From the NCBI GenBank assembly GCA_947462725.1, contig CANHPZ010000010.1, positions 1 to 36,723 of the forward strand: 36,723 bases of DNA, read 5' to 3'. Every line of letters starts with the position of its first letter. Position 1 is the stretch's first letter. Shown one piece after another: positions 2,929 to 36,723 of this stretch. Both the position numbers and the translations under genes were made by a program. The notes beneath the pieces were generated by a model, which made no database searches, was not told the origin of the DNA, and saw only the letters and a program-made list of their open reading frames with translations. The stretch comes from Flavobacteriales bacterium. GTDB taxonomy: Bacteria > Bacteroidota > Bacteroidia > Flavobacteriales_D > Sanyastnellaceae.

Positions 2929-3804
2929 ATGAAAATCCACCGCGTTGCCATAGCCATGAAGTTCCTATTCACCATAATGGTGATGATGCTGGTTATACCT
3001 GCTTCCGCTCAGAAAAACAAATTCGAGCGCAGCAAGGATGTGGGCCTATTGTGGGGCACGAGCTACTACATCGGTGAGGTTAACCCGTACAAGCATTTTG
3101 GCACTCGCTTAAAAAGCGGCGGTGGCATTTCCTTCCGCAACAACTTCAACCGCAGATGGACATTGAAATCGAGTGTGCTTTATCACGTCATCGAAGCATG
3201 GGACTCCGACAGCGAAGACCCCTGGATTCGCAATCGTAACCTAAGTTTTCGAAACCAGATTATTGAGGGAAGTGTGCAAGGGGAATTGAATTTCTTCAAT
3301 TACCAACTTGGCAATTCGAAATTTCCCATTTCACCTTATCTGTTTGCCGGATTGGGATATTTCCGCATGCGACCTATGGCAGAATATCGAGGCACTTGGT
3401 ATGAATTGCAGCCACTCGGCACTGAGGGGCAAGGCACCGAATTCGGCGACCAGAAATACAAGACTAACATGTTTTCGGTACCGTTTGGGGCCGGTATCAA
3501 AACCAACCTCTTCGCCATTTTCGGGCTGAGCATCGAATGGGGTGTGCGCAAGACCTGGACCGATTATGTGGATGATATTTCCGGAAAATACATCGACCCC
3601 GGACTGCTTGCTGATTTGAATGGCCAACTTGCGGCACTGCTCTCTGATCGCAGTATTCAACAGGAAATACCGAACGCTGCAGGCAATAACAACGGTGGCC
3701 TACAACGTGGCGACCCTGGCCGAAAAGATTACTACTTCTTCTCCATGGTTTCCCTCAACATTCGCCTCGACCGCAAGGCTACCTCATGTTGGGAGCATGA
3801 ATAG
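2929..3804 (+). CDS. DUF6089-type outer-membrane beta-barrel protein
   Basis: The 291-residue protein has a signal peptide ending at ASA-Q (residues 26-28). Alternating strands rich in Tyr, Trp and Gly follow (LLWGTSYYIGEVNP, YLFAGLGYFRMRP, FGLSIEWGVRKTWTDYVDD), as expected of a small outer-membrane barrel. It matches what I know of the DUF6089 family, commonly found between nadK and uppS in Bacteroidota. Its function is unknown; the neighbourhood (uppS, bamA, OmpH) suggests envelope biogenesis. A second in-frame ATG at 2956 would give a shorter, more standard signal peptide (MKFLFTIMVMMLVIP) and is an equally good start. A weak inverted repeat (ATACG/CGTAT, 2901-2916) sits in the upstream gap. 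Confidence 0.85.
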   Translation: MKIHRVAIAMKFLFTIMVMMLVIPASAQKNKFERSKDVGLLWGTSYYIGEVNPYKHFGTRLKSGGGISFRNNFNRRWTLKSSVLYHVIEAWDSDSEDPWIRNRNLSFRNQIIEGSVQGELNFFNYQLGNSKFPISPYLFAGLGYFRMRPMAEYRGTWYELQPLGTEGQGTEFGDQKYKTNMFSVPFGAGIKTNLFAIFGLSIEWGVRKTWTDYVDDISGKYIDPGLLADLNGQLAALLSDRSIQQEIPNAAGNNNGGLQRGDPGRKDYYFFSMVSLNIRLDRKATSCWEHE

Positions 3805-10222: not shown

Positions 10223-11278
10223 TTACTGCATGTTTTTAGCTTCGATGCTCAGTGTAGCATGAGGCACCAGGCGCAAGCGTTCCTTTGGAATGAGCTTACC
10301 TGTAACACGGCAAATACCGTATGTCTTATTCTTGATGCGCAACAGTGCGTTTTCAAGGTTCACGATAAACTTCTCCTGACGAGCTGCCAATTGACCAAGT
10401 TCCTCTCGGTTCATGGTTTCACTGCCATCTTCCATCATTTTGAACGTAGGCGCAGTATCGTCAGTAGAATTATCGCCATCGTGCGAAAGCGATTGCTTCA
10501 ACTCCTCTAGGTCTGCTTTAGCCACCTTCAATTTCTCGTGAATCAGCGTTTCAAAATCCTTTAAGTCCTTATCAGAATATCGTACGTCACTCATAATTTT
10601 CTTTTCTTCCTTTTTCACTACCGGAGCAACAACTACCGGTTTCACTTCCACTTTTGGCTCTTCCTTTTTTACAACAGGCATCGGTTTAGGGGCGGGCGCA
10701 GGCTTAGGAGTTGGCTTGGCAACGGGTGCCGGCTTAGCAACCGGAGCTGGTTTGGCAACAACCTTGGGTGCGGGTTTCGCCTTAGCCACGGGCTTCGGTG
10801 CTACCTTTTTTACAATTGGTTTTTGAATTGCCTTCTTAGCGATAGGTTTCACAACCTTCTTAGCTGCAGCTTTTTTTACCGGTTTGGCCACCTTTTTAAC
10901 CGGCTTGGCTACTTTCTTTGGTGCTGCCTTTTTTGCAATAGGCTTTTTAGCTACAACCTTTTTAGCCGCAGGCTTTTTGGCGGAGGCTTTTTTGGCTGCA
11001 GGTTTCTTGGCAACAGCCTTCTTAGCTGCAGGCTTCTTGGCAACAGACTTCTTAGCAACAGACTTCTTAGCAACAGCTTTCTTAACCGCTGGCTTCTTTG
11101 GAGCTACTTTCTTCGCTGCAGGCTTTACGGCCTTTTTCACCACTTTTTTCGGAGCTGGTTTCGCTTTAGCTGCAGGTTTCTTTGCAGGCTTAGCGGCCTT
11201 CTTTGCGGGCTTTGCTTTCGCAACAGCCTTTTTTACTGCCTTTTTCGGGGCTGGCTTTTTGGCTACTTTTTTTGCCAT
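10223..11278 (-). CDS. DksA/TraR-family regulator with a 228-residue histone-H1-like N-terminal tail
   Basis: The C-terminal part (residues 229-351) is a Bacteroidota-type DksA/TraR protein, a family that binds the RNA polymerase secondary channel. It has a helical hairpin (residues about 235-315), then YGICRVTGKLIPKERLRL and PHATLSIEAK. Of the four zinc-ligand positions of classical DksA only Cys323 remains; the others are Thr326, Ser344 and Ala347. Residues 1-228 are almost entirely Lys, Ala, Pro and Val in AKKPAAKKA-type repeats, resembling the tail of histone H1 or bacterial H1-like proteins. The last part is a Pro/Val/Glu linker. Non-specific DNA or nucleoid binding by the tail is inferred. 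An internal ATG at 10594 (Met229) would give a 123-residue product of normal family length. The gene starts 10 bases after ileS and ends in a strong terminator. Confidence 0.92.
   Translation of the reverse strand: MAKKVAKKPAPKKAVKKAVAKAKPAKKAAKPAKKPAAKAKPAPKKVVKKAVKPAAKKVAPKKPAVKKAVAKKSVAKKSVAKKPAAKKAVAKKPAAKKASAKKPAAKKVVAKKPIAKKAAPKKVAKPVKKVAKPVKKAAAKKVVKPIAKKAIQKPIVKKVAPKPVAKAKPAPKVVAKPAPVAKPAPVAKPTPKPAPAPKPMPVVKKEEPKVEVKPVVVAPVVKKEEKKIMSDVRYSDKDLKDFETLIHEKLKVAKADLEELKQSLSHDGDNSTDDTAPTFKMMEDGSETMNREELGQLAARQEKFIVNLENALLRIKNKTYGICRVTGKLIPKERLRLVPHATLSIEAKNMQ
11041..11085. repeat. 15-bp tandem repeat inside the H1-like tail
   Basis: CAACAGACTTCTTAG occurs twice in perfect tandem (11041-11055, 11056-11070). 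A third, 13-of-15 copy follows. On the minus strand each unit encodes a five-residue KKSVA-type block. The surrounding 10860-11270 is a looser array of the same Lys/Ala-coding units, so slippage and length variation between strains are likely. Confidence 0.85.
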
Positions 11279-33895: not shown

Positions 33896-34222
33896 ATGAT
33901 TAAAGTAGCAGAAAGCGCCAAGCAGCAAGTTGAGAAATTGCTTCAATCGGAAAACCATCCTGAAGGCTCGTTCGTTCGCGTCGGCGTGGATGGCGGCGGT
34001 TGCAGCGGACTCATGTATCAGTTGAAATTTGATCATGAGATGAAGGAAGGCGACCAGATTTTCGAAGACAACGGCGTGAAAGTAGTTGTTGACCGCAAGA
34101 GTTTTCTTTACCTGGTAGGCACCGAACTCGAGTACACGGGCGGGCTGAACGGCAAAGGCTTTGTTTTCAAAAACCCTAATGCAAGTCGCACATGCGGATG
34201 CGGTGAAAGCTTTTCGATTTAA
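33896..34222 (+). CDS. sufA: HesB/IscA/SufA-type iron-sulfur carrier protein
   Basis: A-type carriers accept [4Fe-4S] or [2Fe-2S] clusters from the SufBCD scaffold and pass them to apoproteins. The 108-residue protein has the three invariant cysteines: Cys36 in GGGCSG, and Cys100 and Cys102 in TCGCGESF. VRVGVDGGGCSGLMYQL and ELEYTGGLNGKGFVFKNPNA are typical. It is first in the suf operon, 21 bases before sufB. Whether it should be called SufA, IscA or ErpA cannot be settled from sequence alone; the position favours SufA. Confidence 0.93.
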   Translation: MIKVAESAKQQVEKLLQSENHPEGSFVRVGVDGGGCSGLMYQLKFDHEMKEGDQIFEDNGVKVVVDRKSFLYLVGTELEYTGGLNGKGFVFKNPNASRTCGCGESFSI

Positions 34223-34243: not shown

Positions 34244-35692
34244 ATGGCCTACGAAGGAGATGAGTTGCTCGAAAGTGTAACATCGAAGGATTACGAATTC
34301 GGATTTACCACCAACATAGAATCAGACAAGGCTCCGGCCGGTTTGAATGAAGATATTATTCGTCTGATTTCAAAGAAAAAAGACGAACCTGAATGGCTGC
34401 TGCAATGGCGCCTGGAAGCTTTTGCCATCTGGCAAAAAATGACTGAACCGGAGTGGGCGCACGTGAAGTACACGAAGCCCGATTTTCAAGCCATTTCCTA
34501 TTACGCAGCACCGAAGCAGAAAAAGATATTGAACTCACTGGATGAGCTCGATCCGGAAATGCGCAGAACGATGGAGAAGCTTGGCATTTCACTCGAAGAG
34601 CAAAAGCGATTGAGTGGTGTTGCTGTTGATTTTGTGATGGACTCTGTTTCCGTCGCTACCTCTTTCAAGGAAAAACTCGGTGAGCTTGGTATCATCTTCT
34701 GCTCGATGAGCGAAGCCATCAAAGAACATCCCGAGCTCGTTCGCAAATACATCGGTACCATTGTACCGCGTACCGATAATTTTTACGCTGCACTCAACTC
34801 AGCGGTTTTCACCGATGGTTCATTTTGCTATATCCCAAAAGGTGTGCGCTGTCCGATGGAACTCTCCACTTACTTCCGAATAAACGAAGGTGGTACCGGA
34901 CAATTCGAACGCACGCTGGTAGTAGCAGACAGCGAAAGCTATGTGAGCTATCTCGAAGGATGCACAGCACCGCAGCGCGATGAGAATCAATTGCACGCTG
35001 CTGTAGTGGAACTCATCGCAATGGACAATGCCGAGATCAAATACAGCACGGTGCAGAACTGGTATCCCGGCGATAAAGAAGGCAAAGGCGGAGTGTTCAA
35101 CTTCGTTACCAAGCGCGGGATGTGCGAAGGTGTAAATTCAAAAATCAGCTGGACACAAGTTGAAACAGGAAGCGCAGTGACATGGAAATATCCATCGTGC
35201 GTTCTGAAAGGCGACAACAGCGTGGGTGAGTTTTACTCCGTTGCTGTGACCAATAATTATCAGCAAGCCGATACCGGAACGAAGATGATTCACCTGGGTC
35301 GCAATACCAAGAGCACCATCATTTCTAAAGGCATCAGCGCGGGACACAGCCAAAACAGTTACCGTGGTTTGGTGCAGATCAATAAGAACGCAACGAACGC
35401 GCGCAACTTTTCGCAATGCGATTCACTGCTGATGAGTGATCGTTGCGGTGCGCATACGTTTCCATACATCGAAGTAAAAAACAAAACGGCCAAGGTGGAA
35501 CATGAAGCCACCACGTCGAAAATTGGCGAAGACCAAATCTTCTATTGTCTGCAACGCGGATTGGATACAGAACAAGCCATTTCGATGATTGTGAACGGCT
35601 ACGCGAAAGAAGTACTGAACAAGCTGCCCATGGAGTTTGCCGTGGAAGCGCAGAAGTTGTTGGCGATATCGCTGGAAGGAAGCGTTGGATGA
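34244..35692 (+). CDS. sufB: Fe-S cluster assembly scaffold protein SufB
   Basis: SufB, with SufC and SufD, forms the SufBC2D scaffold on which iron-sulfur clusters are built in the cytoplasm. The 482-residue protein starts [21 protein letters not shown] and has the usual [13 protein letters not shown]. The conserved core is [30 protein letters not shown], the beta-helix region with [15 protein letters not shown], and [23 protein letters not shown]. Length is normal (about 480-495). An AAGGA-like element lies just before the ATG. The four-helix-bundle gene and its repeats separate it from sufC, which is normally adjacent. Confidence 0.97.
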
Positions 35693-35697
35693 TTTGG

Positions 35698-35730
35698 TTG
35701 AAAGTTGAAGGTTGAAGGTTCTGTTGTATC
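35698..35730 (+). repeat. TTGAAGG-type repeat, upstream flank of the four-helix-bundle gene
   Basis: Three heptamers TTGAAAG, TTGAAGG, TTGAAGG (35698-35718) are followed by TTCTGTTGTATC (35719-35730). The unit begins 5 bases after the sufB stop. Inverted copies lie on the other side of the four-helix-bundle gene (36206-36238 and 36274-36313). Confidence 0.85.
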
Positions 35731-35755
35731 GAGGTGAGGTTTTAAAAATTTAGAC

Positions 35756-36280
35756 ATGGCTACTGTTCAGAGGTTCGAAGATTTAAAAGTTTGGCAGGCG
35801 GCGAGAGCATTGCGCTCTGAGCTGAGTGCCATAATGTGCGGCAGTCAATTCAAACACGAATATGAATTGCGCAGCCAAATACTTCGCGCCGCACTTTCTG
35901 TGATGGCCAATATTGCCGAAGGCTTTGAACGATCAACTACCAAAGAATTCATTCAATTTTTATTCATCGCCAAAGGTTCCAACGGCGAACTGCGCAGCCA
36001 TTTAGTTGCCTTACTCGATGACAACTTCATTTCAAACGAACAGTACAATGAACTAACCGAAAAATCAACTGCTATCTCAAAACAACTCGCTTCTTTCATC
36101 CAATACCTCGAGCAGTCGAACACAACAAAACGCAATTCATACTCCACCCCCAATAAAACAAATTCATCAGCCAGAGAGGAGGCAATAGCCTACCACATCG
36201 TACTTGATGCAACAAAACTTTCAACCTTGAACCTTCAACTACAGATGAAACTGTTGTATACCACACAGAACCTGATATAA
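35756..36280 (+). CDS. Four-helix-bundle protein (23S rRNA intervening-sequence family) inside the suf operon
   Basis: The first 120 residues match the four-helix-bundle family first described from 23S rRNA intervening sequences: FEDLKVWQAAR, YELRSQILRAALSVMANIAEGFERST, EFIQFLFIAKGSNGELRSHL, and a last helix with LASFIQYLEQS. The molecular function is unknown; relatives (Avd) bind nucleic acid in diversity-generating retroelements. The domain is normally about 115-130 residues. Here 174 residues arise because the frame runs on into the downstream repeats, so the last 23 or so residues (from ATKLSTLNLQ) are repeat-encoded and probably not functional. The gene interrupts the usual sufB-sufC adjacency and is bounded by inverted repeats, which suggests insertion as a cassette. 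Confidence 0.85.
   Translation: MATVQRFEDLKVWQAARALRSELSAIMCGSQFKHEYELRSQILRAALSVMANIAEGFERSTTKEFIQFLFIAKGSNGELRSHLVALLDDNFISNEQYNELTEKSTAISKQLASFIQYLEQSNTTKRNSYSTPNKTNSSAREEAIAYHIVLDATKLSTLNLQLQMKLLYTTQNLI
36206..36240 (-). repeat. Inverted TTGAAGG-type repeat, downstream copy 1 (inside the ORF end)
   Basis: Read on the minus strand: TTGAAGG, TTCAAGG, TTGAAAG, then TTTTGTTGCATC. The last twelve bases match the upstream TTCTGTTGTATC at 10 positions. It overlaps the 3' end of the four-helix-bundle reading frame. Confidence 0.8.
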
Positions 36281-36315
36281 CAGAACTTTCAACATTCAAC
36301 ATTCAACCTTCAACT
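36274..36315 (-). repeat. Inverted TTGAAGG-type repeat, downstream copy 2 (just before sufC)
   Basis: Read on the minus strand: TTGAAGG, TTGAATG, TTGAATG, TTGAAAG, then TTCTGTTATATC, which matches the upstream flank's TTCTGTTGTATC at 11 of 12 bases. It ends 8 bases before the sufC ATG. CTGTTGTAT at 36251-36259 can also pair with ATATAACAG (36275-36283), giving a local hairpin. Confidence 0.82.
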
Positions 36316-36322
36316 ACAGAAA

Positions 36323-36723
36323 ATGATCTCCATCAATAACCTCCGCGCCTCCATCGAAGAAAAAGAAATCCTCCGCGGACTCACCCTCGACGTGAAGCCC
36401 GGCGAAGTGCACGCCATCATGGGGCCTAACGGCTCCGGCAAGAGTACTCTCGCGTCGGTGCTCGCCGGTCGCGAGGACTATGAAGTAACAGGAGGCAGTG
36501 TTACCTTCAACGGCAAAGACCTGCTCGAGATGCCCGCCGAAGTGCGCGCACGCGAAGGACTATTCCTCGCGTTTCAATATCCCGTAGAAATACCGGGAGT
36601 GAGCAACATGAACTTCTTGAAAGCAGCTGTCGGTGAAATGCGCAAGCACAAAGGCTTGGAACCACTCGCGGCAAAAGACTTCCTGAAACTCGTGAAAGAG
36701 AAAGCAGCTCTTGTTGAATTGCA
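36323..36723 (+). CDS. sufC: Fe-S assembly ATPase SufC (5' part; gene runs off the window)
   Basis: SufC is the ABC-type ATPase of the SufBC2D scaffold; ATP binding drives the rearrangement needed for cluster assembly. The visible 133 codons start MISINNLRASIEEKEILRG. They contain Walker A GPNGSGKST (residues 34-42) and the Q-loop segment GLFLAFQYPVEIPGVSN characteristic of SufC. The ABC signature, Walker B and H-loop would follow beyond the window. The start lies just downstream of the repeat that ends the four-helix-bundle cassette, so the original sufB-sufC spacing is lost. sufD and sufS are expected next but are outside the window. Confidence 0.95.
   Translation, partial: MISINNLRASIEEKEILRGLTLDVKPGEVHAIMGPNGSGKSTLASVLAGREDYEVTGGSVTFNGKDLLEMPAEVRAREGLFLAFQYPVEIPGVSNMNFLKAAVGEMRKHKGLEPLAAKDFLKLVKEKAALVEL

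Follow-up and report, generated by a model that had tools for sequence, protein, structure and literature searches.

A probable IVS-like cassette outside rRNA: an S23p gene between inverted heptamer arrays in the sufB-sufC spacer of a Flavobacteriales bacterium

In the window, by which the whole analysed stretch of 36,723 nucleotides is meant, sufB and sufC are separated by 630 bp that are probably a mobile cassette resembling the 23S rRNA IVSs, lying outside rRNA, in which inverted arrays of 7-bp units enclose an S23p gene and which entered the suf spacer in sense orientation. The initial annotation took this insert for a one-off, but the cassette is a widespread family, and the window gene appears to be one copy of this barely described kind of tiny cassette, which codes only for a four-helix-bundle protein. 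There is good reason to count the window copy among the mobile S23p cassettes. One testable question thereby unites the role of the 23S rRNA IVS proteins, the source of heptameric repeats and the presence of S23p genes in cas and suf operons. In practical terms, a 'four helix bundle protein' within an operon should be read first as an insertion and not as part of the function of that operon, and the Bacteroidota suf operon offers a natural hot spot for studying insertion into a housekeeping operon.

Structure of the insert and of its protein

The window comprises the entire contig G000:C10 of a 238-contig genome, and sufC is thus cut by the contig end. The suf locus carries the following features.

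33896..34222, plus strand: sufA/HesB-type gene (ORF), the first suf operon gene visible in the window
34244..35692, plus strand: sufB (ORF), 97-90% identity to sister genomes
35697..35733, plus strand: 5' terminal arm, three heptamer units (GTTGAAR) followed by TTCTGTTGTATC
35756..36280, plus strand: S23p / 23S_rRNA_IVP four-helix-bundle gene, 174 aa (PF05635, TIGR02436)
36203..36239, minus strand: first copy of the 3' inverted arm, within the ORF, 84% complementary to the 37 nt at 35697-35733
36274..36315, minus strand: second (outer) copy of the 3' inverted arm, GATATAACAGAA plus heptamers
36323..36723, plus strand: sufC (ORF), truncated by the contig end

The distance of 630 bases given in the initial annotation is exact according to the ORF coordinates, with the sufB stop at 35692 and the sufC ATG at 36323. 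Its description of the content, namely a TTGAAGG-type repeat, a four-helix-bundle gene and two inverted copies of the repeat, is borne out in every part, with heptamer arrays mapped to 35697-35720 on the plus strand and to 36216-36239 and 36288-36314 on the minus strand. The terminal words were said to lie one base apart, which is true of TTCTGTTGTATC at 35719-35730 and GATATAACAGAA at 36274-36285 when the latter is read as its reverse complement (TTCTGTTATATC). With at most one mismatch, TTGAAGGTTGAA has eight matches in the window, where shuffles predict 0.29, and seven of the eight fall at the sufB-sufC locus. The 3' arm is doubled in tandem with its copies 75 bp apart, the first copy coding for the C-terminus of S23p, and RNA folding (z -4.6 relative to 20 shuffles) predicts pairing of the outer copy with the 5' arm. 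The cassette accordingly has complementary ends closing a stem around the ORF, as the 23S rRNA IVSs do, as well as terminal inverted repeats, as MITEs and insertion sequences do. Neither a transposase nor any other gene besides S23p is found within it, and no promoter-like or terminator-like site stands out on the plus strand of the locus. Elsewhere in the window (10782-11266), a run of ~15-bp units forms lysine/alanine-rich, histone H1-like coding repeats that have no relation to the cassette.

The ORF matches both PF05635 (E 1.4e-30, 106 bits against a cut-off of 33.8) and TIGR02436 (E 3.8e-29, 101 bits against a cut-off of 24); the core of the protein spans 8-112, and a C-terminal extension enters the 3' arm. 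An AlphaFold2 model of the monomer (pLDDT 86) has the four-helix-bundle fold of XCC0516, and the nearest folds retrieved by Foldseek are XCC0516 (2gsc, TMt 0.93) and BT_0352 (2rld, 0.86), followed by Avd and a DGR ribonucleoprotein (4dwl, 8ub7). Both crystal entries, 2gsc and 2rld, contain five chains, and the title of the XCC0516 structure report presents that protein as an assembly built from five four-helix bundles (Lin 2006, title cited in PMC3936711). Over 140 codons, the S23p genes of the window genome and of two sister genomes (G000, G002 and G004) show a dN of 0.022-0.044 and a dS of 0.26-0.64, and the resulting ratio of 0.05-0.09 indicates that the window S23p is maintained under purifying selection. 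To our knowledge, S23p has no catalytic residue or transposase motif. In an alignment of 27 diverse S23p, the sole invariant residues are Q32, R35, E46 and E69 (L123 numbering), all of them polar or charged, which could mark an active or binding site and not mere packing.

S23p loci and heptamer arrays in the genus and beyond

Flanking short-period arrays accompany nearly all of the 30 S23p loci retrieved from the genus, each of which was read, and at most of them the two arrays are reverse complements of each other. The motif itself differs from locus to locus (GGCGAGT, GTGCGAG, GGGGTTA, GGTGATA, GGTGAAAT, GGATTACA and more). For a wider comparison, 147 S23p loci from the genus, the family, the order and 80 named genomes, picked by protein similarity, were set against 107 control genes using a flank score, defined as the best local match between the 300 bp upstream and the reverse-complemented 300 bp downstream. 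The threshold score of at least 18 was reached at 98 of the 147 S23p loci and at a single control gene among the 107 (p=1.8e-27, a value that overstates the certainty because related loci are not independent, the effect size being unaffected). Moreover, arrays of period 7/8 or multiples thereof were present at 94/147 S23p loci and 9/107 controls. Scores dropped to the control level when downstream flanks were swapped among S23p loci; thus, the array motif is particular to each locus. The named loci span Bacteroidota, Clostridia, Ignavibacteria, Campylobacteraceae, Proteobacteria, Nitrospirae and Gracilibacteria. A hidden rRNA location of the distant loci was rejected, with rRNA found near S23p at none of 20 sampled loci, mostly outside Bacteroidota. 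As a side observation, L214 from a KSB1 genome has two Acido-Lenti-1 RNA matches 3' of its S23p gene (2968-3013 and 3541-3586), and a search of phage records returned one match.

The flanks of the window cassette are not unique in its genome. The search for further copies that the initial annotation had recommended yielded 87 matches to GTTGAAGGTTGAA at one mismatch, grouped in ~20 array clusters. An examination of 21 arrays placed 17 in intergenic DNA and the remaining four inside ORFs of 120 aa or longer. Several are palindromes, consisting of an array, a short loop and the inverted array, that hold no S23p gene. Across the genus, TTGAARG, GGCGAGT and GGTGAAAT range from 0 to 147 matches per genome, with G001 having none of the three. 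G003 and G007 are rich in TTGAAGG arrays, yet no S23p with the TTGAAGG motif was found in these incomplete genomes, so the gene would seem dispensable for keeping the arrays, as far as incomplete genomes can tell. A strict link between motif and S23p in each genome has only marginal support and is not claimed: 24 motif-by-genome cells comprise ten with both, five with neither, nine with arrays only and none with the gene only (p ~0.05, the cells not being independent).

At the suf locus, comparison of G001 to G004 indicates that both the presence and the position of the S23p cassette vary within one genus. Seven other genomes of the genus were available, four of which show the end of sufB plus the DNA that follows. 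The inspection of close relatives for an empty site, likewise recommended beforehand, gave a positive answer, as gene and repeats are lacking between sufB and sufC in G001 and G003 and are present in G002 and G004. In G003, whose sufB is 97% identical, the spacer measures 154 bp and contains other repeats, and in G001 it measures 41 bp; G003 may have lost the cassette. The S23p of G004 is 91% identical to that of the window. In G002, a heptamer array follows sufB at a contig end and an S23p (85%) stands just before sufC on a second contig, which starts with the same 11 bases; the two contigs presumably join there. G001 carries a different S23p (53% to that of the window over 75 aa) between sufA and sufB, flanked by AT-rich arrays.

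Additional elements were observed in these spacers. A 1.9-kb secreted-protein gene with a 622-residue open frame and a possible C-terminal sorting domain lies inside the sufB-S23p spacer of G004 (L063, G004:C18, 2873-5051), having the same heptamer array plus leader on both sides. The sufB-sufC spacer of G003 (L057 2946-3101) holds another dispersed palindrome, of the AGGGACGCGCTGCTGCGCGTCC type, which is also found in G004 (L063 near 2960). Both the window genome and those of its relatives are fragmented assemblies, with contigs that tend to break off at heptamer arrays.

Occupied and empty sites on cyanobacterial plasmids

Mobility of S23p cassettes at the level of the family is very likely in the light of paired occupied and empty sites, at which the cassettes have inserted as units into array-free DNA. 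Site A is occupied in Trichormus variabilis ATCC 29413 and Scytonema NIES-4073, where S23p stands between two conjugation operon genes, and is empty in Aulosira laxa, Tolypothrix PCC 7601 and Nostoc linckia NIES-25, with flanks 96-98% identical. The empty site reads AAAAAGTAATTAACAAAT, and the occupied site reads AAAAAGTAAT, a 423-bp element and then GTAATTAACAAAT. The 5-bp GTAAT is duplicated, the empty site is without a heptamer array, and the element contains S23p and its arrays and nothing else. The Scytonema copy has a 5' array shorter by 14 bp (two units), a decayed copy occupies site A on pC052_E of Nostoc C052, and a related cassette (83-84% identical) is found at a different Aulosira site. 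Templating of the array motif by the target site, considered since the G001 array resembles the sufA stop region, finds no support at site A, whose empty version has no such motif.

At site G, comparison of pNsp_c of Nostoc ATCC 53789 with pC052_A of C052 reveals ~500 bp inserted with a 3-bp overlap. Five other occupied/empty sites (TraM-hyp, cas10-cmr3, integrase-hyp, one in Aulosira and cas6-cas4) have a few to tens of bases or more replaced or diverged and no clear duplication. As clean insertion with a short duplication (5 bp and 3 bp) is seen at two of the seven sites, a fixed-length target duplication is not established for S23p cassettes. At the TraM site of Nostoc ATCC 53789 (L243), inverted arrays enclose a short spacer that is not S23p, the structure that a non-autonomous derivative should have. 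Genes of the 23S_rRNA_IVP family in cas loci have been read as having a cas-associated function (PMC3936711); the same family is wedged between cas genes in L236 and L238, and the empty cas10-cmr3 site in PCC 7002 suggests cassette insertion. Taken together, the occupied and empty sites support in kind the earlier proposal of a small mobile element that ends in inverted repeats and brings no transposase of its own; they belong to Cyanobacteria and not to Bacteroidota or to the window copy.

Relation to known systems and possible modes of spread

S23p ORFs occur within the 23S rRNA IVSs of Leptospira, Coxiella and Brucella. The window cassette shares with these IVSs the protein family and the position of the gene in a loop closed by complementary ends. 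However, the IVSs are located in rRNA whereas the window cassette lies in a protein operon (sufB-sufC), and its ends are inverted heptamer arrays with a locus-specific motif. The small size, inverted ends, array-only derivatives and, at two sites, short duplication of S23p cassettes recall MITEs and small insertion sequences, from which they differ in having degenerate tandem arrays instead of a fixed sequence as ends, no transposase within the cassette and a duplication length that differs between the two clean sites. The cyanobacterial STRR are a heptameric repeat family as well.

Tandem heptamers (GACAGAT) lie upstream of the ORF in the Coxiella IVS, an ORF reported as decaying in contrast to the window S23p with its signature of purifying selection (PMC4990558), and the mobility of 23S rRNA IVSs is mentioned there as long suspected (Ralph and McClelland 1993, cited in PMC4990558). 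Furthermore, heptameric repeats have been reported as GGGAATC in Xanthomonas and GGGGAYT in Nostoc (PMC4692102) and as TAACTGA in Beggiatoaceae (PMC4679880). As far as the available parts of these reports go, such families resemble the present arrays in their 7-bp tandem units and their mostly intergenic, dispersed and sometimes inverted placement; the same parts leave the origin of the repeats unexplained and draw no link to S23p genes. A literature search covering few subscription papers found nothing linking non-rRNA S23p to inverted heptad arrays, insertion sites or suf.

A mechanism for the preferred reading, that of an IVS-like mobile cassette, can be sketched as follows. In the transcript, the two arms would form a single long stem whose loop holds the S23p gene, an arrangement shared with the 23S rRNA IVSs, and this pairing would let the operon tolerate the insert as 23S rRNA tolerates an IVS. 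S23p would form a five-fold ring like XCC0516 and bind the repeated units as DNA or RNA hairpins; as a working idea, a repeated unit would suit a ring protein, with one unit per subunit. The complex of protein and hairpin, together with host nucleases, polymerases or recombinases, would make an inserting copy, preferentially entering transcribed, co-directional gene junctions, and arrays without the gene would be non-autonomous derivatives or remnants. That S23p itself drives the mobility of the cassette is a tentative idea with somewhat less than an even chance of being correct. The most far-reaching version, which is rather doubtful, would place S23p cassettes among the smallest autonomous mobile elements, with a ring-forming, nuclease-less protein that recognises and spreads its own locus-specific heptad arrays, gives rise to the heptameric repeat families of many genomes and favours transcribed operons like suf. 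Should S23p be responsible for its own spread, it would represent a mobile element that lacks any known recombinase; otherwise, some other enzyme moves a very large number of cassettes.

The foremost alternative, possible though on balance unlikely, regards the heptamer palindromes as the mobile or recombinogenic units, MITE-like or REP-like and moved in trans by a host or IS enzyme, with S23p as a trapped passenger. Arrays without S23p are indeed far commoner than arrays with it, and other DNA is enclosed by arrays both at Nostoc plasmid site L243, with its short non-S23p spacer, and in G004, where the same arrays bound the 1.9-kb gene. However, the association of S23p with inverted arrays extends across phyla with a different motif each time, which is not expected of a chance passenger, and selection on the window protein also speaks against this role. 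Additionally, no other gene family was noticed to recur between arrays, which was an incidental observation.

Retro-mobility is improbable as an explanation. S23p would here act like Avd and deliver the cassette RNA in folded form to a reverse transcriptase, whose cDNA would then insert. The classic IVSs lie in highly transcribed rRNA, the window model shares its fold with Avd and the DGR complex (4dwl, 8ub7), and the homology of PF05635 and Avd is known (PMC10053308). The orientation of the gene also agrees with such a process, S23p being sense in 107 of 118 junctions between co-directional genes (91%) and antisense in 11; as 79% of control gene pairs share a strand, co-direction with the neighbours alone is not unusual, and the informative figure is that of 107 sense against 11 antisense. 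DGRs need a reverse transcriptase, however, and PF00078 (RVT_1) was unmatched in eight genomes of the genus, most of them 76-95% complete and one 99%, with control genomes positive as expected. Reverse-transcriptase help within the genus was therefore rejected.

A role of the suf-linked S23p as a resident accessory gene for iron-sulfur cluster assembly, kept by selection and with incidental repeats, is very unlikely. Purifying selection on the window S23p would fit such a role, as would its repeated presence in Bacteroidota suf operons: S23p lies at sufA-sufB in G001, L100, Riemerella anatipestifer, L278 and L282, at sufB-sufC in the window, G002, G004, L135, L138, L143, L257 and L273, and at sufC-sufD in L266, L269, L274 (two copies), L279, L281 and L283. 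Homologues of sufA adjoin S23p in L079, L100, L256, L278 and L282, and the cassette comes directly after sufA in G001, Riemerella and others. Moreover, HesB, four-helix-bundle and SufB genes of Riemerella are listed together as iron-responsive (PMC5609570). Nevertheless, only 4 of 26 suf loci carry S23p in an even draw of Bacteroidota genomes (the locus of the window included), the junction occupied is not constant, and the same family is found in cas, conjugation and many other operons. Descent of all suf-linked S23p from one orthologous suf gene likewise finds no support on a 202-sequence tree (few columns, weak support), where they do not appear as one clade and the suf label needs seven changes.

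The preferred reading of S23p as a mobile cassette takes the suf operon of Bacteroidota as a recurrent target, at all three junctions; the rate expected by chance for suf occupancy is well under 1%, by a rough estimate from ~2 S23p genes per genome and ~2000 junctions. The sense bias at co-directional junctions (107 against 11), the RNA fold of the window cassette and the purifying selection on its protein count in favour of this reading too. Transcription of the operon by read-through of the cassette is plausible, considering that the plus strand offers no promoter-like or terminator-like site and that the Riemerella genes are listed as responding together to iron (PMC5609570).

Formation of the arrays by simple-sequence slippage, with a role as terminators and arrival of the gene by homologous recombination between dispersed arrays, has very little likelihood despite the varying array copy number of otherwise identical insertions (14 bp, L237 versus L249) and the near-identical cassette in opposite orientation beside the same flank (L076, L086), since the empty sites at site A have no array and array-array recombination cannot have placed the cassette there, control genes rarely carry such arrays and the window locus shows no conspicuous intrinsic terminator.

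Some minor observations concern the genus. The S23p genes of L076 and L086, from two genomes, are 97% identical and point in opposite directions next to shared flanking DNA, in a way that suggests a flip of the cassette via its inverted arrays, though an assembly error may also account for it. A GGAATAATATTCC-like palindrome, which could be an operator or promoter element, precedes the start of many S23p genes of the genus by 60-120 bp, on the inner side of the upstream array (L069, L070, L071, L076, L086, L097 and others), and was not seen in the window copy. Relative to a neighbouring gene region, a GGCGAGT cassette is located upstream in one genome and downstream in a second (L080, L082), a placement similar to that of the sufA-sufB and sufB-sufC positions.
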